From: a virus
Direction: 5' to 3' (one strand)
IMG/VR virus record: IMGVR_UViG_3300032294_001477
Coordinates: 1 to 25,306 of that record
Length of the DNA: 25,306 bases
Positions 2,064-25,281 of this stretch are shown in pieces; the first letter of the stretch is position 1, and each line of letters begins with the position of its first letter. Below the pieces are notes generated by a model that was not told the origin of the DNA, searched no databases, and worked only from the letters and a program-made list of their open reading frames with translations. Made by a program: the position numbers and the translations under genes.

Positions 2064-4109
2064 ATGCGCTCACCTTTTGCAAATGCGCTAGCGATCATCG
2101 CCGGCGCGATGGCGGCTGCGATCACGCCGCCCTCGACGCTCACGCCGACGCAATGGGCGCAGGATAATCTCGTCTTGGTCGAGGGGCCGCGCGCCGGGCA
2201 GAAATGGGATCCCGCGCAGGCGCCCTATATCTGCGCCATTATCGACGGCGTGTTTTCCGGGCCGCACACGAAAGGCACAGTCCGCAAGTCCGCGCAGGTC
2301 GGCTACACGCAGGGGCTTACGGCGCTCGCCGGCTGGATTGTCGCCGAAAGCCCGGCGCGCACGCTCGTCGTTTTGCCGACAACCTCGCTCGCCCTCTCGC
2401 TCAACCGCGAAAAGCTGCAGCCCGCGATCGACGCGACGCCGGCGCTCAAGCGCCGCGTCATGGCCATGTCGAAGCGCGAGTCGCTTGGCTCCTCGGCGCT
2501 GTTCAAAAGCTTTCCCGGCGGCTCGATCGCGATCACGGGCGCGAATTCCGCCGCCGAATTGCAGATGCGCACGATCAAATTTGCGCTCTGCGACGAGATC
2601 GACCAATGGCCGAAAGACCTCGACGGCCAGGGCTCGCCGATGGCCATGGTCGACGGCCGGCAAATCGCCTTTCACGCCACGCGCGACTATCGCAAGCTGC
2701 AGGGCGGCACGCCGACCATGAAAGGCGCGTCGCTCGTCGACGCGGAATTCGAAGCCGGCGATCAGCGATTCCAGCGTCTGCCCTGCCCGCATTGTGGCGA
2801 GCGCATCAAGCTTGTTTTCGGCGGCTTCGCCGATCAGCCGGGGCCGGGCCTGCGATTCAACCGCACGCATCCATATGATGCGCATTATATGGCGCAATGC
2901 TGCGGCGCGCGTATCGAGCATTGGCAAAAAGAGGGCATGATCGGCGCGGCCATGAGCCTGCCCGATTATGGTTTCATCGCCGAAAAACCCGAGCCGGGCC
3001 GCCATCCGTCGTGGCATATCGACTCGATTTCCTCGAATTTCACGACATGGGACAAGATTGCCGAGACGTTCGTCACGGCCGGCGACGATCCGCAAAAGCT
3101 CAAGAGCTTTTATAATCACTGGCTCGGCCTCGCCTATGAGGAAGTCGCCGACGTTCCCGATTGGGAATCGCTCTACAAGCGGCGCGAAAGCTACGCCGAG
3201 CGCGTCATTCCCGCCGACGCGCTGCTCGTGACCATGGGCGTCGACGTGCAAAAGCGCGGGCTTTATGTCGAGATCGTCGGATGGCGGCCGGACGCCGGCA
3301 GCTACACGATTTATGCGACCTACATAAACGCCGGAACGATCGAAAAGCCCGGCGATACGGCCGACCCGGACGATGCATGCTGGCGGCGTCTTACCGAGCT
3401 GCACGAAACGCCGCTGCTCGACGCTTTCGGCGGCGCAAGGCGGGTCGATGCGACGGGCCTCGACTGCCGCTTCGAATCTGCCACAGTTTACGATTGGGTC
3501 CGGCGTCACCATGGCGCCTATGCAATCCGCACAATTGAGGGCTGGGGGCAGCCTTCGCTTGGCGCGCCCAAGCTCGTTGACTTCGACTGGCGCGGCAAGC
3601 GCATCCGCAAGGGCGTGCAGCGCTGGCATGCGGGCTCCTACAATCTCAAGAGCCGTTTTTATGCCTATCTCAAGCGCGAGACCGAAATCGACCCGCTGGG
3701 CGAAATCATCATGCCGCGCGGCTATTGCCGGTTCGGAACTTTCCTTAACGAGCAATATTTCCGGCAGATCACGGCCGAATATATCGGCCAGGACAAGGCC
3801 GGAAACCGCGTCTGGAAAGAGCGCGAGCAAGACAATCACTGGCTCGACTGCCGCGTGATCAATATGGCGCTCGCTTTTGGCGCGCCGACCTTCGACATTG
3901 GCAATCGCCCGGAAAGTTTCTGGCGCGACCTGGCGCATGAGCGCGGCGCATCGTCGGCGGTCGCGCCCTTGTTGCGCGCACTGACTCCGGCGAGCGCGGC
4001 GCAAACGGATGCGCCGGCCGATGCGGACGCATCAACCGTTGCGGAAGCGCCGGCCGAGCCTGCCGCCGCGCCTGATGGCTGGACCTATGGGGGCGACTCT
4101 TGGCTCTGA
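2064..4109 (+). CDS. Terminase large subunit, lambda gpA family (packaging ATPase/nuclease)
   Basis: A 681-residue protein close in size to lambda gpA (641). It would pump DNA into the prohead and cut it at genome ends. The ATPase P-loop is the deviant gpA form, KSAQVGYT (residues 75-82), comparable to lambda KSARVGYS with the lysine at the front. A Walker B-like FALCDEID follows (173-180). A CPHC plus a later CC pair (about 243-280) looks like a zinc-binding insert. The nuclease half begins near TMGVDVQKRGLYVEIVGW (about 390-407), with the metal-binding Asp in GVDVQ. The C-terminus has DNHWLDCRVINMALA, typical of the family. The last 60 residues are a low-complexity Ala/Pro tail that probably contacts the portal. 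A later in-frame ATG at 2109 is an alternative start. Confidence 0.95.
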   Translation: MRSPFANALAIIAGAMAAAITPPSTLTPTQWAQDNLVLVEGPRAGQKWDPAQAPYICAIIDGVFSGPHTKGTVRKSAQVGYTQGLTALAGWIVAESPARTLVVLPTTSLALSLNREKLQPAIDATPALKRRVMAMSKRESLGSSALFKSFPGGSIAITGANSAAELQMRTIKFALCDEIDQWPKDLDGQGSPMAMVDGRQIAFHATRDYRKLQGGTPTMKGASLVDAEFEAGDQRFQRLPCPHCGERIKLVFGGFADQPGPGLRFNRTHPYDAHYMAQCCGARIEHWQKEGMIGAAMSLPDYGFIAEKPEPGRHPSWHIDSISSNFTTWDKIAETFVTAGDDPQKLKSFYNHWLGLAYEEVADVPDWESLYKRRESYAERVIPADALLVTMGVDVQKRGLYVEIVGWRPDAGSYTIYATYINAGTIEKPGDTADPDDACWRRLTELHETPLLDAFGGARRVDATGLDCRFESATVYDWVRRHHGAYAIRTIEGWGQPSLGAPKLVDFDWRGKRIRKGVQRWHAGSYNLKSRFYAYLKRETEIDPLGEIIMPRGYCRFGTFLNEQYFRQITAEYIGQDKAGNRVWKEREQDNHWLDCRVINMALAFGAPTFDIGNRPESFWRDLAHERGASSAVAPLLRALTPASAAQTDAPADADASTVAEAPAEPAAAPDGWTYGGDSWL

Positions 4110-4327
4110 CGACGCAACAAATCCAAGGCTTGATCAGCCAACTGCAAACGGCGCTCGGCTCCGGCGCGGTCACTGTCGAATATGACGGCCGGCGCGTGAC
4201 CTATCGCAGCCAGCAAGAGATCGAGGCGGGCATCGCCTATTTCCAGCGGCTCTTGACGGCGTCCGCCGGCGCGATTGCGCCCGAAAGCGCCTCGCGCACT
4301 TCCTATGCAGCGTTTTCGCGGGATTAA
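4100..4327 (+). CDS. gpW-like head-tail connector protein
   Basis: A 75-residue protein starting with TTG at 4100, overlapping the terminase end by 10 bases, with a G-rich stretch just upstream as ribosome-binding signal. It consists of an N-terminal helix, a beta-hairpin-like VEYDGRRVTYRS (about 25-36) and a second helix (EIEAGIAYFQRLL). This is the layout of lambda gpW (68 residues), the connector that completes the head after packaging and lets gpFII and tails bind. Its place between large terminase and portal is the same as in lambda. No other in-frame start upstream gives a sensible protein. Confidence 0.85.
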   Translation: MALTTQQIQGLISQLQTALGSGAVTVEYDGRRVTYRSQQEIEAGIAYFQRLLTASAGAIAPESASRTSYAAFSRD

Positions 4328-5845
4328 ATGACCTTCAAACCGAGCCTTTTGGATCGCGCGCTGCTCGCGCTCGCGCCGCAAGCCGGCCTGGCGCGCGTCA
4401 AGGCGCGCATGCAGGCCGCCGAGCTGTTTCGCGCCTATGACGGCGCGGCCAAAGACCGGCGGCTCTCGGGCTGGCGCGCCTCAAGCAGCGGGCCGCGCGC
4501 AGAAGGCGACACGGGCCGCGAAACGCTGCGTTATCGCGCCCGCGATCTCGCTCAAAACAACGCCACGGCCGCAGCCGCAAAGTTGCAATTCGCCGCGCAG
4601 ACTGTCGGCTCGGGCATTACGCCGCGCGCGGTCGGCGGATCAAAAGCGATGCGCAAGCGCGCGCAAGATGCATGGAAACGCTTCGTCGACACATGCGACG
4701 CGGACGGAAATCAGGATTATTACGGCCTGCTCTCGCTTACCGCGCAAAGCCTCTTTACCGACGGCGAGGTGCTGCATGTGTGGCGCCAGTCCGGCGGCGA
4801 GCGCTGGCGCAAGCTGCGCGTGCTCGAGGCCGATCACCTTGACGAGACGCGCGTCGAGCTTGCGCGCGGTCGCAATGACCGCGTCGTCAACGGCATCGAA
4901 TTCGACAAGGAAGGCGCCCGCAAGGCCTATTGGCTTAACAAGGTGCATCCTGGCGAGACGGATGTGCTGCGGCTGTTGAGCGAGGCCGAGCGGATCGAGG
5001 CGCAGCATGTCGATCATTATTTTCACGTTGCGCGGCCCGGCCAGATCAGGGGCGTTTCGTGGCTGGCGCCGTCAATCGTCTCGCTGCGCGGCCTCGACGA
5101 CGTCGCCGAGGCGGTTCTCTGGCGCAAGCGGCTTGAGGCGTGCATCGGCATCATTATTCGCACGCCCGAGGCCGCTGGGTCGCTGCCGACCGTCGGCAAG
5201 CAATCAACCGGCGATAGCGGCGAGCGGCTGGAGACGATGCGGCCCGGCATGATGCCGCGCCTCGGGCCTGGCGAAGACCTTACGGCTTTTCAGCCAACCG
5301 TTTCCGCCGATACGATCGATTTTATACGCTGGCGGCTCTATGCGTTCTGCGCAACGACGGGCCTCGCCTATCACGAAATCACGGGCGACGCCTCGCAAGC
5401 CAATTATTCATCGATGCGCTCGGCGAAACTCGCCGGATGGGCGCTGCTCGACCTTGTGCAATGGGTCGTCTTTGCACCGCGCATCAAAACGGCCTGGCGC
5501 CGCGTCATGGAAGCCGAATACAACGCGACCGGCAACGATGTGCGGTCGATCGGCTGCGAACTTTCCATGCCGGTTAGGCCGTGGGTCGATCCGCTGAAAG
5601 ACATTATGGCCAAGGTGCTCGAAATCCGCGCGGGCCTGCTTTCGCATCCTGACGCGCTCGCTGAGCGCGGCGTCAATATGGATGAATTCATTGCCGAGTC
5701 GGTCGCTTTCCTCAAGGAAATCGACGTCGCTGGCCTGATCTTCGACACGGATCCCCGCAAGACGAACGATTCCGGCGCGCTGCAGGCCGCCGTGAAGGCG
5801 CAGGGCGCCAGCGCCGGCGGGCAAGACGCTCAACCCACAAACTAA
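4328..5845 (+). CDS. Portal protein, lambda gpB family
   Basis: A 505-residue protein starting directly after the gpW stop (TAAATG). Family hallmarks of lambda-type portals are visible. The N-terminal RARDLAQNN is followed by a repeated helical core. The middle has FTDGEVLHVWR. A later stretch has YHEITGD, then NYSSMRSAKLAGW (about residues 358-370), where the conserved Asn-Tyr-Ser-Ser precedes the long helix lining the channel. The C-terminus is disordered and Ala/Gly-rich. Portals form a dodecameric ring at one capsid vertex, dock the terminase and admit DNA. The size is close to lambda gpB (533). The downstream capsid gene starts 9 bases after the stop, with its ribosome-binding site in that gap. 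Confidence 0.95.
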   Translation: MTFKPSLLDRALLALAPQAGLARVKARMQAAELFRAYDGAAKDRRLSGWRASSSGPRAEGDTGRETLRYRARDLAQNNATAAAAKLQFAAQTVGSGITPRAVGGSKAMRKRAQDAWKRFVDTCDADGNQDYYGLLSLTAQSLFTDGEVLHVWRQSGGERWRKLRVLEADHLDETRVELARGRNDRVVNGIEFDKEGARKAYWLNKVHPGETDVLRLLSEAERIEAQHVDHYFHVARPGQIRGVSWLAPSIVSLRGLDDVAEAVLWRKRLEACIGIIIRTPEAAGSLPTVGKQSTGDSGERLETMRPGMMPRLGPGEDLTAFQPTVSADTIDFIRWRLYAFCATTGLAYHEITGDASQANYSSMRSAKLAGWALLDLVQWVVFAPRIKTAWRRVMEAEYNATGNDVRSIGCELSMPVRPWVDPLKDIMAKVLEIRAGLLSHPDALAERGVNMDEFIAESVAFLKEIDVAGLIFDTDPRKTNDSGALQAAVKAQGASAGGQDAQPTN

Positions 5846-15401: not shown

Positions 15402-15796
15402 GCGACGTCATCCGTTTCATGCGCGCTTTTCCGCTCACGCCGCAAACGGTCTGCACCGAGGCGCCCATGGCGTGGCTCGCGCAGCGCTGCGGCGTCACGC
15501 CTGCGACGGTCGAAGAGCAGCGCGCGACCATGGCGCGTTTCGGCTATCCGCGCGGGCTCTATGTGGGGTGCGAACGCCACGGGCTCGCCATTCTCGACGT
15601 CGACGCAATCGACGCATTGGAGGGCGACGCGGTAATCGCGGCAAGCGCCGATCGCACGCTCTCGGCCGTCGGGATACTCGCGCATGGCGGGCTTGTCGTC
15701 GCGGCGAGTTTCGGCCGGCTGATCGTCGCGCATCTGCCGTTGCTGCGCGTGATTCGGCCTGTCGGTTTTGCGCCAGCCCGGCCGGGGGCCGAGTAA
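15398..15796 (+). CDS. Hypothetical tail-tip region protein
   Basis: A 132-residue protein starting at the ATG of an ATGA overlap with the previous gene. I do not recognise its family. It starts SDVIRFMRAFPLTPQTVCTEAP, then AWLAQRCGVTPATVEEQRATM, then strands ending in HLPLLRVIRPVGFAPARPG. Siphovirus tail operons usually have an NlpC/P60-type peptidase at this place (lambda gpK), but no Cys-His catalytic pair in the usual context can be made out here. The two cysteines of the first half and one of the second are not in peptidase motifs. It could be an assembly factor for the J-like tip protein, in the place of lambda gpI. An earlier in-frame start at 15389 adds three residues and lacks support. 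Confidence 0.6.
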   Translation: MSDVIRFMRAFPLTPQTVCTEAPMAWLAQRCGVTPATVEEQRATMARFGYPRGLYVGCERHGLAILDVDAIDALEGDAVIAASADRTLSAVGILAHGGLVVAASFGRLIVAHLPLLRVIRPVGFAPARPGAE

Positions 15797-17892
15797 TGCC
15801 GCAGGTTGTCGCGCTCGCGGTCGCGCCGGCTCTTGGCGCCGCTTTGGGGCTCACGACCTCGGGCGCGCTGATCAGCGCCGCGGGGCTCACATTCGCCGGC
15901 GTCAATGTTGTGAGCGCCATTTCGACGGCGATCGTTATCGGCGCGGTTTATGGCGCCGAGCGGCTGCTGTCCTCGCCGCGCGCGGGCAAGCCGCAACTTC
16001 AATTGCCGCCGGGGCCGGTCGCGCAGGAAATCGAGCTGCAGGCCGTTTCGGCGCGTTATTACACATACGGGCAAGACCGGGTCGGCGGCGCGATGTTCTT
16101 TCAGGAAGTCGGCGGCCAGCTCGGCGGCTGGCTCGGCTACGGCATCGTTTTGTCGTGCCGGCCGATCGACGGCGTCGTGACCTATTTCGTCGACGACGAA
16201 GCCTGGACGACGGCGACGGGGCTGGCCAATGAGCCGCTGGAATCGCCCATCGGTTTCACGCCGAACGCCGTCGACCTTGGCCCGAATGTCTTTTGGCCCC
16301 TTACCGGCGCAAAATTCACGGTGTTTTCGGTTTTGGTCTTTGTGCCAAACGCCGGGCCGCAGCCTGCGCCGACGGGCAATGGCCCGATCATGTTCGGCGA
16401 ATTCCGCAACGCCTCGCAGGCCGGCGCCGTCTCGACGCTGCTCACGCGCGATCATTCGTCGATCTGGGGCGCGTCGCATCTGGGCCGCGGCCTCGCATGT
16501 CTCTATTTCCGGGCAAACCGGCTCGATCGCGAATATCGTTTCGTTCGCTATCCGCGCGGCTTCCCGACGGCCTCGACCGTGCTGCGCGGCCAGCGGATTT
16601 TCGATCCGCGCGACTCCGGCCAGAGCTTCTATGCGACGGGCGCGCATCTCACGTCGGTCCTCGCCATCAAGGCGAGCGACGCGGCGTTTTACACGGGCGG
16701 CGATTTTCGCGAAGATACGGGCGGCATATGGTCGGCCTATAATCCGTCCTGGGAATACTCAACCAACCCGGCTTTGCAGATCGCAGATCTGCTCACATGC
16801 CCGGCCGGCTTTGGCCTGACTTATGATGATATGGACTGGCCGTCATTTGTCGAGGCGGCGAATGATTGCGACCGGCTCGTTACAGTGTTTGGCGGCGGGA
16901 CGGGCGCTTTCGCCCGCGCTCATCTGACATGGTCGGCGAGCGAAGAGCGACGCGACGTGCTGGGCAAGCTCCTCGCCGCCTGCGACGCGCAGGTTTACGA
17001 AAACGAAGACGGCAAAATTGCAATCTGGGTTGGCAAATGGATCGAGCCGACGGTGACTTTGACCGAAGCCGATCTCGCCATGCCGATCAGCTTCGACGCC
17101 TCCTCGGGCGTCTTTGAAAGCGACAATGTCGTTACGCCGGCCTATGTCGAGCCGCGGTCGAATTACCAGCGCAACACCTCGCTTTTTATCGAGGATGCGG
17201 CGTCGATCGCGCGCGTCGGTCGGCGCAGCGCGACGATCGACCTGCCCGCGGTCAAGGATTTCAACCAGGCCTATCGCCTCGCGGCGCGCGCCATGCGGCG
17301 CAAAAACACGCCGATGAAAATCGAATGCGTCGCAGGGCCGCGCGGCCTCCTCGCCGATGGCGAGCGCGTCGTTCGGCTGGAGTTGCCGACGTTCGGCGTC
17401 TCGGGCGTGTTTCGCGTCATGAGGCTTGAGGCGCAGTCGATTTCGACCGTGTCTCTCGTGTTGCATCAGGTAACTGAGGAAATGTTCGCAGACGTCGTCG
17501 CGCCCTTTGATCCGATCAATGGGTCGCTTCCGGGCGCGCCCGTCATCGCGCCCTATGTTCCGCCTGCGCCTGTTGCGCCGTCGCTCTCCTCGGCCGTCGT
17601 CGGTGGCGCGGCGGTCATTTCGGCGTCGGTTTCGGCGCCGGGCGGCGGCGACACAGTTCCGGACGCGCGCTTTCGATTCCGGCCGGTCGACGTCTCGACC
17701 AATGCGCCGCTGGGCGACGGCAGCTTTACGATCTTTCCCGACTTCACCGGCCAATACAGCGCCGCCTCGCCGGGCATTTCCGGCGTCAACGGCACGCCGC
17801 AGCGTTTCGAGGTTCAAGCCTGGTTCATCAACGCCGGGCAGCCAGGGCCGGTTTCGCCCTCAAGTTTCATCACAATCACAACCTTCACCTAA
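15796..17892 (+). CDS. Tail-tip attachment protein, J-like
   Basis: A 698-residue protein. The real start is the ATG in the TAATG overlap at 15796; the frame is open further upstream but that part is only a shadow of the preceding gene. A hydrophobic Ala/Gly/Val N-terminus (about residues 5-55) precedes a beta-rich body. YYTYGQDRVGGAMFFQEVGG (about 92-111) and TYFVDDEAW lie in the hub-like half. GKIAIWVGKWIEP, then YVEPRSNYQRNT and KDFNQAYRLAARAMRRKN (about 414-510), are characteristic of J-like central tip proteins. A fibronectin-like beta domain with PVAPSLSSAVV follows at about 595-698, ending SFITITTFT. This protein forms the tip hub and helps bind the receptor or carry side fibres. Confidence 0.85.
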   Translation: MPQVVALAVAPALGAALGLTTSGALISAAGLTFAGVNVVSAISTAIVIGAVYGAERLLSSPRAGKPQLQLPPGPVAQEIELQAVSARYYTYGQDRVGGAMFFQEVGGQLGGWLGYGIVLSCRPIDGVVTYFVDDEAWTTATGLANEPLESPIGFTPNAVDLGPNVFWPLTGAKFTVFSVLVFVPNAGPQPAPTGNGPIMFGEFRNASQAGAVSTLLTRDHSSIWGASHLGRGLACLYFRANRLDREYRFVRYPRGFPTASTVLRGQRIFDPRDSGQSFYATGAHLTSVLAIKASDAAFYTGGDFREDTGGIWSAYNPSWEYSTNPALQIADLLTCPAGFGLTYDDMDWPSFVEAANDCDRLVTVFGGGTGAFARAHLTWSASEERRDVLGKLLAACDAQVYENEDGKIAIWVGKWIEPTVTLTEADLAMPISFDASSGVFESDNVVTPAYVEPRSNYQRNTSLFIEDAASIARVGRRSATIDLPAVKDFNQAYRLAARAMRRKNTPMKIECVAGPRGLLADGERVVRLELPTFGVSGVFRVMRLEAQSISTVSLVLHQVTEEMFADVVAPFDPINGSLPGAPVIAPYVPPAPVAPSLSSAVVGGAAVISASVSAPGGGDTVPDARFRFRPVDVSTNAPLGDGSFTIFPDFTGQYSAASPGISGVNGTPQRFEVQAWFINAGQPGPVSPSSFITITTFT

Positions 17893-17915
17893 CGCCCCCG
17901 CAAATGAGGAAAGCA

Positions 17916-20900
17916 ATGACTCGCACGCTTCAACGCGGCGCGCTCGCGCTCGCTTGTCTTTTCGTGTCGGTTGCGGCGCTCGCGCAGTCGAGCGGCTCGA
18001 CCGTCACGACCAACGCGCGCGCGGTGTGGCGCGACTGGACAGTCGACGGCGTGCCCTCGTCGGGCGTCTGGAATCCGCTAAAGAGCGACATTCGCGCCTG
18101 GGGCGCGCTTGTCGGCGGCCAGCTTAATTCGCTGCAGGGCGCGCAGGTTGGCGGGACGCTGGCTTTCGACACGAAAGCCAATCTCGACGCAACTCTCGCC
18201 TATCCGGCCAATTCCATGGCCTTCGTCTTTGCCGATGCGACCTCGGCGAATAATGGCGTCTATCGCAAGAGCGGCGCGAGCGGCGCGGGCTCATGGGCCA
18301 AAGTCTCGTCGCTGATCTATGGCCCGCAACCGGTGTTTTCGGTTGCGGGTAGTTTTTCGACCAACCCGGCCGACGCGGCGGTTTCGATCGGCGGGTCGCC
18401 GACGTCGCCGCTGATCAGTTTCGTCGTGCCGCGCGGCACGCTTATTCATTCGACGTCCGGCACGCCCTCAACCGGCCTCGGCCTTAATGGCGATTACGCG
18501 ATCGACCCGTCGAACTATACGCTTTGGGGACCAAAAGCGGCCGGGGTTTGGCCCGCGCCTTCGGCGACGGCGCAGGGCGCCGCGGCGGCGGCGGCGTCGA
18601 GCGCCTCGGCGGCGGCTGTAAGCGCCTCGGCGGCGGCGGCTTCTGCGGCGGCGGCGGCGGCTCCCGCAACGTCGACAACGCGCGGCGGTGTGTATGTGCC
18701 CGGCGGCGCCAATCTCACACTGGCAGGCGACGGGGCTTTGTCGCTGTCTGGCGCCAATGTCGGGGCCGCCCTTGGATACACGCCCGTTAACAAGGCGGGC
18801 GACGCAATGACTGGAGGTCTTTCGACGACCGGGGGGCTTGCATCAAACAACCTTTTGCTGCAGGGCGACGGGGCGAATGGCTACATCCGCCCGACGAATG
18901 CGCCCGGCTCCCTTTATCTTGGCGCAGCAAATCAAAACCTAGGAATTATCACGAACACGGGGCATTGGGGCTTCGGAAATCTTAATCCAGCATCGGCCGG
19001 CGGCCGCTTCGTGTTCGATTACACAGCGAATGGCAATGGCAATTTGAGGGTTGTCAATGGCAGCTCGGGCGCGGATGCAATGGCCTCGGTTGAATATGTT
19101 TCAGGCATTGCAAATTCTTATGCAATAACCTCTCTGCGCAACAATGGCGGCCTTCCTTACTTTTTAATAGGAACCGGACCAGCCGTCACTGAGGGGATTC
19201 TTTACGACTCTGTGCGCCATGTGTTTCGCGATGAGGCCGGCGTCGAGGCGATGCGGATCGTTAATGACAACGTCGGAATTGGCGCGATTACACCATTAAC
19301 AAAGTTCATGGTCGCTAAGGATAGCAATCCGGTCGCGAGTGAGCCTTTCGGCGACTTTCAAGGAAATGGACAGCTTTTTGTCACGGGCAAAACAAATACA
19401 GCTAAGCGCCTTGCGCTAGGCGTCGATACAACCGTGACGCCGATGGCGGGCGTCATTCAATCTATCGAGGCGGGAACGGCGCTGCGTAACCTCGCTCTCA
19501 ACCCGTCCGGCGGCAATGTCGGCATCGGAATGATTGACCCGCCATCCAAGCTTTCTGTAACTGGAAATGGATATTTTAACGGCGCGCTCGGCATCGGGAC
19601 GCCGTCGCCTCGTGGGAGCCTTGAAGTTGCAGCCGCGGCGCCGTCAACGGTTTTCACCAATACGTCGGGGGCGACAAATGAGAAAACATACGATTGGCAC
19701 AGTAATTCGGGCGTTCTTTATGGGCGCATGTTAAACGACGCATTTTCGGATGCGAGGCACTGGATTGAAATTTCTCGATCCGGAATTAATCCGACGCAGG
19801 TTGGCTTCCCGAATGGCGTCGTCGATATCGGCGGCCTTGGGTCGACGCATAAATTCAACGTAAATGGAAATGCCGGCCTTGCGGCGGGGGGCTATCTTAA
19901 TTTTGGCACGGCAGACGGCGCCGCCGGCTACGGCATAAGAGACAATGCAGGCTCAATTGAGTGTAAAAACTCGGGTGGCTCCTGGGCGACCTGCGGCGGC
20001 GGCGGGGGGGGATCGCCGGCCGGGTTGACCGCATGGAAAAATATGAAAAGCGATTGCGGCGCGGCGGGTAACGGTTCGACTGACGATCTCGCTGCGATCA
20101 ATTCTTGCGTCGCCGACGCTAATAGCACGGGCGTCTCTCTCTATTTTCCGCCCGGCACTTACAGGGTTAGCGCTCCGATCAACGAAATCACGCGTTCGGG
20201 CGTGCGCATAAAAGGCGACGGCCGAAACTCAACGATCATTGCGGCGGCTTTCGCTGGAGGCGACACGCTCACAAGCAATGCGCAGTTTACCAGTGTTGAG
20301 GATCTGTCGCTCACGCCAAGCGTCTTCAAAACTAGCGGCTATGAGCTGGTCGTTAAGAATGGGTTTAACAATGTCATTCGAAATGTCTACGTTAACGGCG
20401 GCTTTAGAGGAATACAGGTTCTTTCGACGGCCTCGCCGTTCCTCGAAAATATCGGCATGCGCTACCTGACGGGCGACATAGGCCTCTATTTCACCGGCAC
20501 GGCCAGCGTCTCGTCATATGGCATGTATGCGAAAAACATGGTCGCAGACAACCCATATGCTGTGCCGATTTTTAACGAAAATCTGAAGTCCTGGGGGAAT
20601 TCGACGGCTTATGCTGTCGGCGACGCTTTCACGGTCAGCGGCTGGATCTGGCAGGTGGTCGTCGCCGGAACCTCGCAAAGCTCGGGCTTGCCCGCGGCGC
20701 CGACGGCGGCGGGATGGAACCTGACGAACGTCGCCAGCGGCAGCGCTCAACTGCGCCCGATCGCCAGAACAAGCCTTACCTGGGTTTATATGGATTCATA
20801 CGCTAACAGCCTTGTGGGTGTGAGCTTCGCGCTTTTGAACGGGGCGCGCGGCTTCGCAATGACCGACAACGCTAACACGACGGGGAGTTATCCCTCTTGG

Positions 20901-21398
20901 GCATATTTCTACGACTTGGAAGTCGATCACGCTTATTTCACTGGCGTCGACATCTCTGGCGGAGTTGGGTTTCACGCGACTAACGCATGGGTCGGCTCAA
21001 CCCTGACCGGGAACGCTTTGTTTTTTGGCGGCGCCTTCAAGGGTGAGGCGACCGTCACAGCCTCACGCATTGTTGCAAATGGCCAGCATGGCGTGCTGCT
21101 CAACGCGGGCGACGATGTGAAGATCCAAGGCAACATCATCGCCAATAACAGCGTCAACGCAGCTAACACATATCACGGCGTCGTCGTCGCCGCGAATATC
21201 AACCGCTTCACGATTCAGAATAATTCAACAGGCGTCGTGCGGCCTTTCACGACCTCGAATCAAGGTTGGGGCGTCATCGTGCTTCCCGGCTCTTCAAATT
21301 ACTACCTGATCCAAGGAAATCTTGGGTTTGGCAATGTTTCGGGCTCTGTCAGCGATGGCGGCAGCGGCGCGAACAAGTCTGTTAGCGGCAATATTTAA
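17916..21398 (+). CDS. Tail fibre/tailspike with Sec signal peptide and beta-helix domain
   Basis: A 1160-residue protein. The start at 17916 is preferred over the ATG at 17904 because GAGGAAAG lies right before it. Residues 1-23 form a textbook signal peptide ending ALA before Gln24. A tail-fibre N-terminus follows (WRDWTVDGVPSSGVWNP, about 38-54), an Ala-rich helical rod (about 219-251), and ALGYTPVNKAGDAMTGGL (about 286-303), a common fibre repeat. The middle contains GIGxxxP-type repeats like those before S74 domains, ending GIRDNAGSIECKNSGGSW. From about residue 700, NGSTDDLAAINSC and VSLYFPPGTYRV are classic of pectate-lyase-like beta-helices of phage depolymerases. Catalytic acids cannot be assigned by eye. 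From about 18840 to 21400 the DNA is more AT-rich than its neighbours, suggesting later acquisition. Confidence 0.88.
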   Translation: MTRTLQRGALALACLFVSVAALAQSSGSTVTTNARAVWRDWTVDGVPSSGVWNPLKSDIRAWGALVGGQLNSLQGAQVGGTLAFDTKANLDATLAYPANSMAFVFADATSANNGVYRKSGASGAGSWAKVSSLIYGPQPVFSVAGSFSTNPADAAVSIGGSPTSPLISFVVPRGTLIHSTSGTPSTGLGLNGDYAIDPSNYTLWGPKAAGVWPAPSATAQGAAAAAASSASAAAVSASAAAASAAAAAAPATSTTRGGVYVPGGANLTLAGDGALSLSGANVGAALGYTPVNKAGDAMTGGLSTTGGLASNNLLLQGDGANGYIRPTNAPGSLYLGAANQNLGIITNTGHWGFGNLNPASAGGRFVFDYTANGNGNLRVVNGSSGADAMASVEYVSGIANSYAITSLRNNGGLPYFLIGTGPAVTEGILYDSVRHVFRDEAGVEAMRIVNDNVGIGAITPLTKFMVAKDSNPVASEPFGDFQGNGQLFVTGKTNTAKRLALGVDTTVTPMAGVIQSIEAGTALRNLALNPSGGNVGIGMIDPPSKLSVTGNGYFNGALGIGTPSPRGSLEVAAAAPSTVFTNTSGATNEKTYDWHSNSGVLYGRMLNDAFSDARHWIEISRSGINPTQVGFPNGVVDIGGLGSTHKFNVNGNAGLAAGGYLNFGTADGAAGYGIRDNAGSIECKNSGGSWATCGGGGGGSPAGLTAWKNMKSDCGAAGNGSTDDLAAINSCVADANSTGVSLYFPPGTYRVSAPINEITRSGVRIKGDGRNSTIIAAAFAGGDTLTSNAQFTSVEDLSLTPSVFKTSGYELVVKNGFNNVIRNVYVNGGFRGIQVLSTASPFLENIGMRYLTGDIGLYFTGTASVSSYGMYAKNMVADNPYAVPIFNENLKSWGNSTAYAVGDAFTVSGWIWQVVVAGTSQSSGLPAAPTAAGWNLTNVASGSAQLRPIARTSLTWVYMDSYANSLVGVSFALLNGARGFAMTDNANTTGSYPSWAYFYDLEVDHAYFTGVDISGGVGFHATNAWVGSTLTGNALFFGGAFKGEATVTASRIVANGQHGVLLNAGDDVKIQGNIIANNSVNAANTYHGVVVAANINRFTIQNNSTGVVRPFTTSNQGWGVIVLPGSSNYYLIQGNLGFGNVSGSVSDGGSGANKSVSGNI
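20004..20011 (+). repeat. G8 homopolymer at a domain junction in the tailspike gene
   Basis: Eight consecutive Gs encode part of a Gly-Gly-Gly-Gly-Ser linker between the fibre body and the beta-helix domain. Gains or losses by slippage would shift the frame and remove the last 460 residues. This is seen in sequence; its use as a switch is inference. Confidence 0.7.
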
Positions 21399-21496: not shown

Positions 21497-22276
21497 ATGA
21501 TCGACGAGAAAAGCATACAGCGCGCGCTGCGCGCCATGGGGCATTACAAGGGCGCCATTGACGGCGCTTTGGGCCGCGCCTCATACGCCGGCATGCGCGC
21601 GGCGCTTGCGCCACTGGCGACCGGCGTCGAGCGCTGGCCGGCGTCGCGTGTGCTGCTCGCCTTTCAGCAGCTCATGATGCGCGACGTCGGAATCGCCGTC
21701 GGCGCGATCGACGGGCTGCGCGGGCCGCAGACAGAGGCCGCTTTCGAGTCCTGGCAAAACTATCTGCGCGACAAGGAAGACGACGAGGCCGACGCATCCG
21801 TCGCCGCGCCGCAGCTCTGGCCGCGACAATCGCAGATGCGCGCCGTCTTCGGCGACGTCGGGACAAGCCAGGTCCGCATTGATCTGCCCTATCCGCTTCG
21901 CATCGCTTGGGCGCCGGCGCAGACGATTGCGCGCATGACGCTGCATGCGCTTGTCGCCGAGTCGGCCAAGCGCGTTTTGTCGCGCGTTCATGAAAGCTAC
22001 GGCGAGCAGCGCATTCGCGAGCTGGGGCTCGATCTCTTTGGCGGCTCGCTCAATGTGCGCAAGATGAAGGGCGGCTCGAAATGGTCGATGCATTCATGGG
22101 GCGTCGCCATTGATTGGGATCCCGAGCGCAATCAATTTCGCTGGGGCCGTGATCGTGCGCATCTGGCGCGCCCGGCCTATGACGCCTTTTGGCGCGAATG
22201 GGAACGCGAGGGCTGGCTTTCTCTCGGCCGCGCGCGCAATTTCGATTGGATGCATGTCCAGGCGCCGCGGCTGTGA
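21497..22276 (+). CDS. Endolysin, M15-family D,D-/L,D-peptidase with peptidoglycan-binding repeats
   Basis: A 259-residue cell wall hydrolase. The N-terminal half has two PG-binding-like repeats: GHYKGAIDGALG (about 15-26) and AVGAIDGLRGPQTEAAF (about 67-83). The catalytic half carries the M15 zinc motif SMHSWGVAIDWD, with His199 and Asp206 as ligands, and DWMHVQ with His253 as third ligand and Asp250 as likely general base. Such enzymes cut peptide cross-links or stem peptides in the periplasm. There is no signal peptide, so export would depend on a holin. The start is preceded by a weak GAGAAAA. The 98-base gap before it holds short GC palindromes but no convincing terminator. It is the first gene of the lysis cluster. 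Confidence 0.92.
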   Translation: MIDEKSIQRALRAMGHYKGAIDGALGRASYAGMRAALAPLATGVERWPASRVLLAFQQLMMRDVGIAVGAIDGLRGPQTEAAFESWQNYLRDKEDDEADASVAAPQLWPRQSQMRAVFGDVGTSQVRIDLPYPLRIAWAPAQTIARMTLHALVAESAKRVLSRVHESYGEQRIRELGLDLFGGSLNVRKMKGGSKWSMHSWGVAIDWDPERNQFRWGRDRAHLARPAYDAFWREWEREGWLSLGRARNFDWMHVQAPRL

Positions 22277-22951: not shown

Positions 22952-24592
22952 ATGACCAATCTCGCCAGCATCGCCGTCGTCTATCCCGCGCAATCGGCCG
23001 CCGCGGCGGTCTATCCGCTCGACGGCGCCGATATCGAAATCCGCCCCGCGGCCTCGCTCGCGGCGGTCGACGTCTCGCCCGTGCTTGTGCCCGGCCCGCA
23101 AGGCCCCGCTGGCCCTGCCGGGCCGCAGGGCGCGTCGGGCGCGCAGGGGCCGCAAGGCCCTGCCGGACCAACGGGCGCCACTGGCCCCGCCGGGCCGCAG
23201 GGCGCGACCGGGGCACAAGGGCCGCAAGGCGTCAAGGGCGACACGGGCGACGCTGGCCCGCAAGGCCCCGCCGGGGCGTCGGGGGCTCAAGGGCCGCAGG
23301 GTCCGGCCGGGCCGCAAGGCGCGACGGGCGCGCAGGGGCCGCAGGGCGTCGCGGGCGAAACCGGCGCGCAAGGCCCCGCTGGCCCTGCCGGGCCGCAGGG
23401 GGCGACGGGCGCACAAGGGCCGCAAGGCCCCGCCGGGCCGGGCGTTCCGGCGGGCGGCGCGACGGGACAGGTTCTCACAAAGGCCAGCGGCGCCGATCAA
23501 GACACGGTATGGCAGACGCCTGCTGGCCCGCCCGATTTGACCGACGCGGACCGCGCGCAGATTTTCGGCGAGCCGATCGCAAGCGCCTCGATCGCCGGGC
23601 TCACGCTCGACGCCAATGGCGACGTAACCGTTAATACGACGGTGACGCTTTCCAACGATCTTTACTGCCGCAATCTGACCGTCGGCGCATCCGGGATTAT
23701 CAATACGGTCGGCTACCGCATTTTTTGTGCGGGAACGCTGGACCTCTCGGCCGCGCAGGCGGCCGCGATCCGCTGGACGCCCAACAATGGCGGTTCGACG
23801 ACGACGCAGGCCGCTGGCGCGGCGGGCACGGCCCTTGCCGGCGTCACCATCGGCGGCGGCCTCGCGGGCGGCGCGGGCGCCGTGGCGACGGCCGCAGCCG
23901 GCGCGCAGGCTGCGGCCGTGGCGGTTTCCGCCGTTGCAATGGGGGGCGGCTCTGGCGCTTCCGGCGCGGGCGGGCTGGGCGCTTCCGGCGCGGGCGGCGT
24001 GCTGCGCGCGGATGCGGCCCTTGCGATCGGCCTGCGCTCGATTCCGCAGATCGTGACGCCGATCTTTCAGCGCGGCGTCGCGCTTCTCCTCGGCGGCCAG
24101 GGCGGGCCGGGAGGAGGCTCGGGCGGCAATGACGGCACGGCGACCTCGGGCGGCGGGGGCGGCGGCGGCGCCGGCGGCGGCTGCCTCGCCATCTTCGCGC
24201 GCACGATCGCGCTCGGCGCCAACGCAAACGATGGAATCATTCGCGCGCTCGGCGGCAATGGCGGGAACGGATCGGCGGCGACGGCGGGCAATCGCGGCGG
24301 CGGCGGGGGCGGCGCAGGCGGGGGCGGCGGCTTCGTCTGCCTCGCCTATGAGACGCTTACGGGGCCGCCCGGGCGGCAACTCGCATGGGCCGCCGGCGGC
24401 GCAGGCGGCAATGGCGGCGCGGGCTTTGGAACCGGCGTTCCCGGCGCCGGCGGCCAAGGCGGCGAAGGCGGCGTCGTCGTCGCGTTCAATCTCACGGCCG
24501 GAACGATCGCGCGCATCGTCGGCGCGGCGGGCGGCGCGGCCTCGGGCGTAACCGGCGGGACGGGCGGTCAATGCCGCTTCGCCCTGCCCTGA
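22952..24592 (+). CDS. Collagen-like and polyglycine-rich phage fibre (adhesin)
   Basis: A 546-residue protein. The ATG at 22952 is used; upstream in-frame sequence only overlaps the previous gene. Residues 1-47 form a small head domain. Residues 48-161 are 38 uninterrupted Gly-X-Y triplets, often Gly-Pro-Gln, Gly-Pro-Ala and Gly-Ala-Gln, expected to form a trimeric collagen triple helix. A linker [20 protein letters not shown] follows. Then [19 protein letters not shown] and [14 protein letters not shown] (about 200-262) open the tip domain, with four or more Gly-rich stretches (GGGGGGGAGGG type) alternating with strands such as [11 protein letters not shown] and [10 protein letters not shown]. 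This resembles the polyglycine II sandwich of the gp38 adhesins of T-even-like phages (S16). Host receptor binding is the likely role. Confidence 0.85.
23093..23434 (+). repeat. Collagen-type tandem repeat tract (38 Gly-X-Y codon triplets)
   Basis: The DNA shows imperfect nested repetition, with copies of GGGCCGCAGGGCGC-type segments every 9 bases and a larger block coding [16 protein letters not shown] at least four times with variation. Such tracts expand and contract by recombination, so length may vary between relatives. The glycine register is unbroken over the tract. Confidence 0.85.
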
Positions 24593-24894: not shown

Positions 24895-25109
24895 GCGCGG
24901 CGCTTTACGCCGCAGTCGTCGTGGCCGGGCTCGTCATTTACGGGCTCGGCCGCGTCGTGCTGGCGCGCATCGCGGCCGGCGGCGCGGCGAAGGCCCGCGC
25001 CGATCGCGCCGAAGGCGACCTCGCGGTCGCGAAGAAGCAAGGCGAGATCATCGCCGAGGAAAGGACAAGCGAAGATGTTGCGCGTCGCCTTGACGATGGC
25101 TCTTTCTAG
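24891..25109 (+). CDS. Inner-membrane spanin (Rz-like)
   Basis: A 72-residue protein starting with GTG in a GTGA overlap with the holin. It has an N-terminal membrane helix (LYAAVVVAGLVIYGLGRVVLA, about 4-24, read as AAVVVAGLVIYGLG) and then a charged coiled-coil-like helix (AKARADRAEGDLAVAKKQGE, about 34-53). This is the plan of i-spanins, whose periplasmic helix binds the outer-membrane partner and fuses the two membranes at the last step of lysis. It is shorter than lambda Rz (153). The 3' end overlaps the downstream lipoprotein gene by 35 bases in another frame, the usual Rz/Rz1 arrangement. Start at GTG 24891 is fixed by the coupling and by lack of better candidates. Confidence 0.8.
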   Translation: MSAALYAAVVVAGLVIYGLGRVVLARIAAGGAAKARADRAEGDLAVAKKQGEIIAEERTSEDVARRLDDGSF

Positions 25110-25281
25110 CCTCCTCGCCGCATGCCAGACGACGGGCGGCGGCTGCCCGCCGCTCGCGGCCTATACGCCCGCGACCATGAAACGCGCCGCGGCCGAAATC
25201 CGCGCCGGCCACGCTCCGACCCTAAGCGGCTTCGTCGTCGATTACGGCAAGCTGCGCGACGCCTGCCGCGTCCGCCGCTGA
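25075..25281 (+). CDS. Outer-membrane lipoprotein spanin (Rz1-like)
   Basis: A 68-residue lipoprotein. A short signal (LRVALTMALSSLLAAC) with lipobox Leu-Ala-Ala-Cys places the mature N-terminus at Cys17. The mature part has CPPLAAYTPATM and a C-terminal VVDYGKLRDACRVRR, a pattern I know from o-spanin-type genes of alphaproteobacterial phages. A strong GAGGAAAGGA (25056-25065) inside the i-spanin gene serves as ribosome-binding site. The frame differs from the i-spanin frame, giving overlapping out-of-frame genes. The protein would sit in the outer membrane with its C-terminus meeting the i-spanin coiled coil. Confidence 0.8.
   Translation: MLRVALTMALSSLLAACQTTGGGCPPLAAYTPATMKRAAAEIRAGHAPTLSGFVVDYGKLRDACRVRR

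Follow-up and report, generated by a model that had tools for sequence, protein, structure and literature searches.

A predicted Sec signal peptide ahead of the docking module of a tailed-phage fibre

The fibre gene and its neighbourhood

The window, which is the whole stretch of DNA analysed here, is a viral record of 25.3 kb, and its fibre gene is set in a late tail cluster with a J-like gene on the 5' side and an endolysin gene on the 3' side. The J-like central tail fibre/tip protein (15796–17892, plus strand; phrog_5616 and phrog_31, taken to start at ATG 15796) carries no signal peptide. Its stop codon ends at 17892 and is separated from the fibre ORF by a gap of 23 nt (17893–17915, plus strand), which holds an SD-like gagg and an in-frame ATG at 17904. 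The fibre ORF (17916–21398, plus strand) encodes 1160 residues starting MTRTLQRGALALACLFVSVAALA/QSSGSTVTTNARAVWRDWTVDGVPSSG and can also be read in the same frame from ATG 17904. The endolysin (21497–22276, plus strand; phrog_17001) follows directly 3' of it. Further downstream, the window encodes a fibre with collagen-like (GPQGPAG) repeats and a glycine-rich C-terminal part, without a signal peptide (22953–24592), and a small lipoprotein-like ORF, MLRVALTMALSSLLAACQT (25075–25281), perhaps the Rz1-like part of a spanin. A host assignment through endolysin matches in genomes of the order of L121 (Variibacter) was rejected, as the matches were not syntenic with the window.

Alignments delimit a tail-fibre docking module at 18006–18125 (plus strand; TTNARAVWRDWTVDGVPSSGVWNPLKSDIRAWGALVGGQL) with the motif WRDW..DGVPSSG..NP.K..IRAWG, which forms the extreme N-terminus in other homologues. 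It is followed by a second conserved N-terminal fibre domain (18126–18335, plus strand) recognised by AF2 and Foldseek, with a pLDDT of about 87–94 over residues 81–130 and hits among viral proteins of fibre length, of which B4UTR2 (51% identical) is the best; a fold search of the N-terminal domain against the PDB returned nothing significant. The variable shaft (18336–20048, plus strand) gave no match in the phage collection. A pectate-lyase-like domain, PF12708, spans residues 712–914 (20049–20657, plus strand; E 3.6e-16, 60 bits against a Pfam cutoff of 27), its activity on polysaccharides being putative, and the AF2 model of the C-terminal part of the fibre has a pLDDT of 37.8.

The N-terminal signal of the window fibre

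By rule-based score, and with a homologous signal in the relative L316, the first 23 codons of the fibre ORF (17916–17984, plus strand; M1–A23, MTRTLQRGALALACLFVSVAALA) constitute a predicted Sec signal peptide. Its n-region contains R3 and R7, its h-region LALACLFVSV has a Kyte-Doolittle mean of 2.8, and its c-region ends in ALA/Q, which together give the basic n-region, the uncharged h-region of at least seven residues and the small residues at −3/−1 of a Sec/SPI signal. The cleavage site lacks the lipobox Cys of a lipoprotein (SPII) signal; the only Cys nearby, Cys14, lies inside the h-region. The predicted cut at ALA/Q, ahead of the Q24 codon (17985–17987), leaves a mature start QSSG, and the predicted mature N-terminus QSSGSTV (17985–18005, plus strand) aligns just 5' of the start Met of the signal-less homologues. 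The sequence-only reading had described a 23-residue signal with a basic start, a hydrophobic core and an ALA/Q site directly before a fibre-type N-terminal domain; both parts are confirmed, the former at 17916–17987 with a score of 3.59 and the latter by the docking module that follows at 18006.

The score applies explicit rules to the n-, h- and c-regions and recognised four of five E. coli control signals; since it missed the PhoA control, the rule is conservative. The window signal exceeds the controls OmpA (3.36), LamB (3.31), Bla (2.82) and MalE (2.62), and the next-best window gene, the lipoprotein-like ORF at 25075, reaches 2.34, with no others near 3.59. Scores of at least 3.5 were obtained for three of the 378 window ATGs followed by 45 open codons, two of which are the fibre signal itself read from 17904 or 17916; the alternative start at ATG 17904 yields an identical signal and cleavage site. 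The ribosome-binding site had been called strong: the gagg lying 6 nt 5' of ATG 17916 does serve this start, but it is moderate and similar to the motifs of the homologues.

GC-rich, Ala/Leu-rich frames may mimic signals by chance, and the homologues start at the module, as would be expected if the segment were not translated, or were hydrophobic only by chance, and the true start lay downstream at the docking module. We consider this very improbable, given that no SD motif was found at in-frame starts further downstream and that the only alternatives near the module are GTG and TTG codons without SD, that about one of the 376 other window ATGs scores as high, that L316 keeps the signal with a third-position bias, and that the layout of a signal followed by a module recurs on other fibres (see below). 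The N-terminus of the window fibre is thus, with high confidence, a real and translated signal, and its features suggest a selectively maintained and probably cleaved Sec signal of the signal peptidase I type.

Distribution of the signal among fibre homologues

Among 159 non-redundant fibres bearing the docking module, a signal above threshold was found in two, those of the window and of L316, while the remaining 157 begin at the module. With only these two bearing it, both of one clade, the signal is not a compositional trait of the fibre family. Two sets of 80 IMG/VR loci each, one retrieved with a first profile and the other with a profile of the docking module itself, showed no signal, nor did 37 bacterial genome loci or a further genome set, and the equivalent fibre region of eleven annotated phages starts without one, the start Met usually lying at the module. 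As more than 150 distant homologues start after the segment, the signal was added at the N-terminus in a single lineage. Conservation of the signal among homologues, raised by the sequence-only reading, therefore holds for L316, which keeps a diverged but intact signal, and not for these distant homologues, which lack the whole segment. The seemingly long N-terminal matches of L080/L081 and L214 proved to be read-through 5' of the gene start rather than signals, and a reading of L073 as a fusion was rejected.

The nearest described fibres are of the type of p023 of Rhizobium phage 16-3, with those of AP-16-3, NV1.1.1, RHph_X2_25 and Nostoc phage Nsp-JY10, which have the docking module and the following domain in common with the window at about 41–50% identity. 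Where the record shows the neighbourhood, their genes lie directly 3' of a J-like gene, as in the window. However, these fibres start at the module without a signal. The window fibre agrees with them in module, following domain and gene position directly after the J-like gene; its presence on the virion is putative.

Signal-bearing fibres of L316 and L379

The closest and only close relative in the collections searched is L316 (IMGVR_UViG_3300035168_000106), found by a J profile search, with a J-like protein 48% identical to that of the window; a dedicated scan gave no third member, and scanning IMG/VR with either the window fibre or its J-like protein as a single query found no close relatives. 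L316 has two fibre genes 3' of its J-like gene, both with a signal. The second, MTQHRLGGALMRALACALMIVAALGAARA/DQITTDARSIWRDY, is homologous to the window fibre and 62–64% identical to it over the N-terminal 140 residues. The two signals align as MTRTLQRGAL--ALACLFVSVAALA and MTQHRLGGALMRALACALMIVAALG, so that the sequence has diverged and the form of the signal has been kept. Over the 22 aligned codons, changes fall 6/7/12 by codon position, the pattern expected of translated DNA.

In the docking module, 75 of 110 aligned residues are identical between the two phages, whereas the distal part of the fibre has been exchanged. A conserved docking module with a replaced remainder is what is commonly seen in virion fibres that bind receptors. 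Two alternatives of the sequence-only reading, capsule degradation by the lysogen and a decoy, find no specific support, since this late-cluster gene is flanked by the J-like and endolysin genes and has kept its docking module. Free tailspike enzymes are plausible, and the combination of a signal with the pectate-lyase-like domain in the window, and with a GH43-like region in L379, would suit a fibre gene that has come to encode a secreted free enzyme (a depolymerase, decoy or surface factor) no longer carried on the virion. The same gene placement, and a docking module conserved while the remainder diverges, argue against such a conversion, which we regard as unlikely.

The first L316 fibre carries the signal MINRLLRGALACAFALMLAGAPAPRAA/QQTIDLG, and its PF07880 domain (T4_gp9_10_N) begins at residue 28, at profile position 1, just after the signal. 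One of 80 IMG/VR loci with a gp9/10-like QQTIxxG module, that of L379, also has a signal, so that a third phage repeats the layout: signal MKTKSILILATLAALLLPPMHAAQQTINVG, gp9/10-type module, then the GH43-like region. The L379 signal was called by eye, the rule-based score having failed there, and its PF07880 match, from residue 24, is weak and below the cutoff. The T4 gp9/gp10-type domain thus begins at or beside the predicted cleavage site in L316 and L379, whereas the window fibre has a VWRD-type module instead. In L316, the fibre adjoining the counterpart of the window fibre (L316:6357–7460), which has its own signal, is glycine-rich (PF21722). In L379, the last approximately 45 residues of the signal-bearing fibre-like protein (2450–4483) share 78–84% identity with proteins from phages of Klebsiella and Acinetobacter.

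Cysteine content of signal-bearing fibres

Proteins that fold in the oxidising periplasm tend to have paired cysteines. The four signal-bearing fibres have 4, 18, 0 and 2 mature cysteines, all even counts, for which the chance probability is about 1 in 16; odd counts occur in 52% of the signal-less fibres. The 18 mature cysteines of the L316 fibre follow one another in pairs (p=0.0024), the clearest such spacing of all fibres tested, and none of 53 signal-less fibres has a pairing p below 0.01. This pairing points to an oxidising compartment for the L316 fibre, as would be the case for periplasmic folding. The mature cysteines of the window fibre (683, 693, 714 and 731), all at the N-terminal border of PF12708, give a pairing p of 0.31, four being too few for the pairing test.

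J-like proteins with signal-like starts

By inspection, about 7 of 198 J-like proteins have a signal-like start 5' of the usual J start. Such starts were noted in L125 (1659–3827), L178 (411–2486)/L323, L278/L308 (5226–7721), L285/L306 (325–2430), L353 (4170–7820), L358 (4026–7160), L014 (689–2881) and the prophage phi3LM21. Examples are MRLVALILLLCPAVAWADPVSLIG and, in phi3LM21, MTSIRLLFASGASFLAMAADAHADPVSLI, and several of these segments end in A-x-A/DP[VI]S. L178 has the signal on its J-like protein and none on its fibre, the reverse of the window and L316. From lambda biology, J is expected to act in the cytoplasm when tail assembly starts, and an N-terminus of this kind on a tail protein does not by itself imply full export: either the J signals are unused for full export, or tail assembly is membrane-linked in these phages.

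These proteins bear on another reading of the fibre segment, as a hydrophobic N-terminal helix that is not used for export across the membrane. It would instead tether the fibre, or the tail tip, to the inner membrane while assembly proceeds, or be part of the virion tip, either buried there or displayed. Hydrophobic N-termini are general among the J-like proteins of these phages, some of which have the signal-like starts, and the mature cysteine counts of the signal-bearing ones are mixed odd and even, unlike those of the fibres. The window fibre, however, has a proper cleavage motif, the segment is absent from the 157 homologues that presumably dock well, and the cysteine pairing of the L316 fibre indicates an oxidising compartment; a membrane or tip helix therefore appears somewhat unlikely for the fibre. 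The phi3LM21 prophage was not induced in a published study (PMC5537653).

Discussion

The signal features of the window fibre, their conservation in L316, the second fibre type and the paired cysteines are the grounds from which we infer export, cleavage and joining at lysis. We propose the following hypothetical sequence of events, in which (i) the window fibre would be exported via Sec and cut after ALA (residue 23); (ii) it would fold in the periplasm, with disulfides where present; (iii) removal of the signal would leave a near-native N-terminus at the docking end, enabling the fibre to dock on the tail tip; and (iv) lysis by holin and endolysin would bring tails and fibres into one compartment, where the fibre would dock on the J-like tail tip. 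We put forward this whole mechanism of Sec export, cleavage and later docking on the virion tentatively, granting it a little less than an even chance. Among the alternatives offered by the sequence-only reading, assembly at or after lysis would fit best.

The Sec-exported tailed-phage proteins that we found as precedents serve in lysis or exclusion (PMC6116005, PMC7650644). For Spackle (gp61.3) of phage T4, sequencing the N-terminus of the protein from the periplasm showed a cleaved Sec signal (PMC7650644); like the window fibre it is a tailed-phage protein with a Sec signal, but it is a small lysozyme inhibitor. Lys44 of phage fOg44, a signal-peptide endolysin, is a late protein that uses the host Sec system (PMC6116005); in contrast to the structural fibre of the window, it is a lysis enzyme. 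The open-access literature searched yielded no account of a tail fibre that is exported, which does not prove that there is none.

The conventional view places both the folding and the assembly of tail fibres in the cytoplasm. The retention of the signal on both L316 fibres suggests that some phages may export fibres from the cytoplasm while the particle is still incomplete. If this is true, receptor-binding proteins would fold with disulfides in the periplasm and virions would be completed at lysis, or free enzymes would be released; either outcome would alter how annotation interprets signal-bearing fibre genes. It is conceivable, though doubtful, that some tailed phages finish their virions outside the cytoplasm as a wider strategy, in which fibre attachment modules have repeatedly acquired a Sec signal at their front and the fibres are exported, cleaved, oxidised in the periplasm and clipped onto tails when the envelope opens, the docking end being native. 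Elsewhere in the collection, a 594-residue tail-region protein (L350:8637–10421) starts with a strong signal peptide, MKKMILVAAIAAFMAVAGVAAADG.
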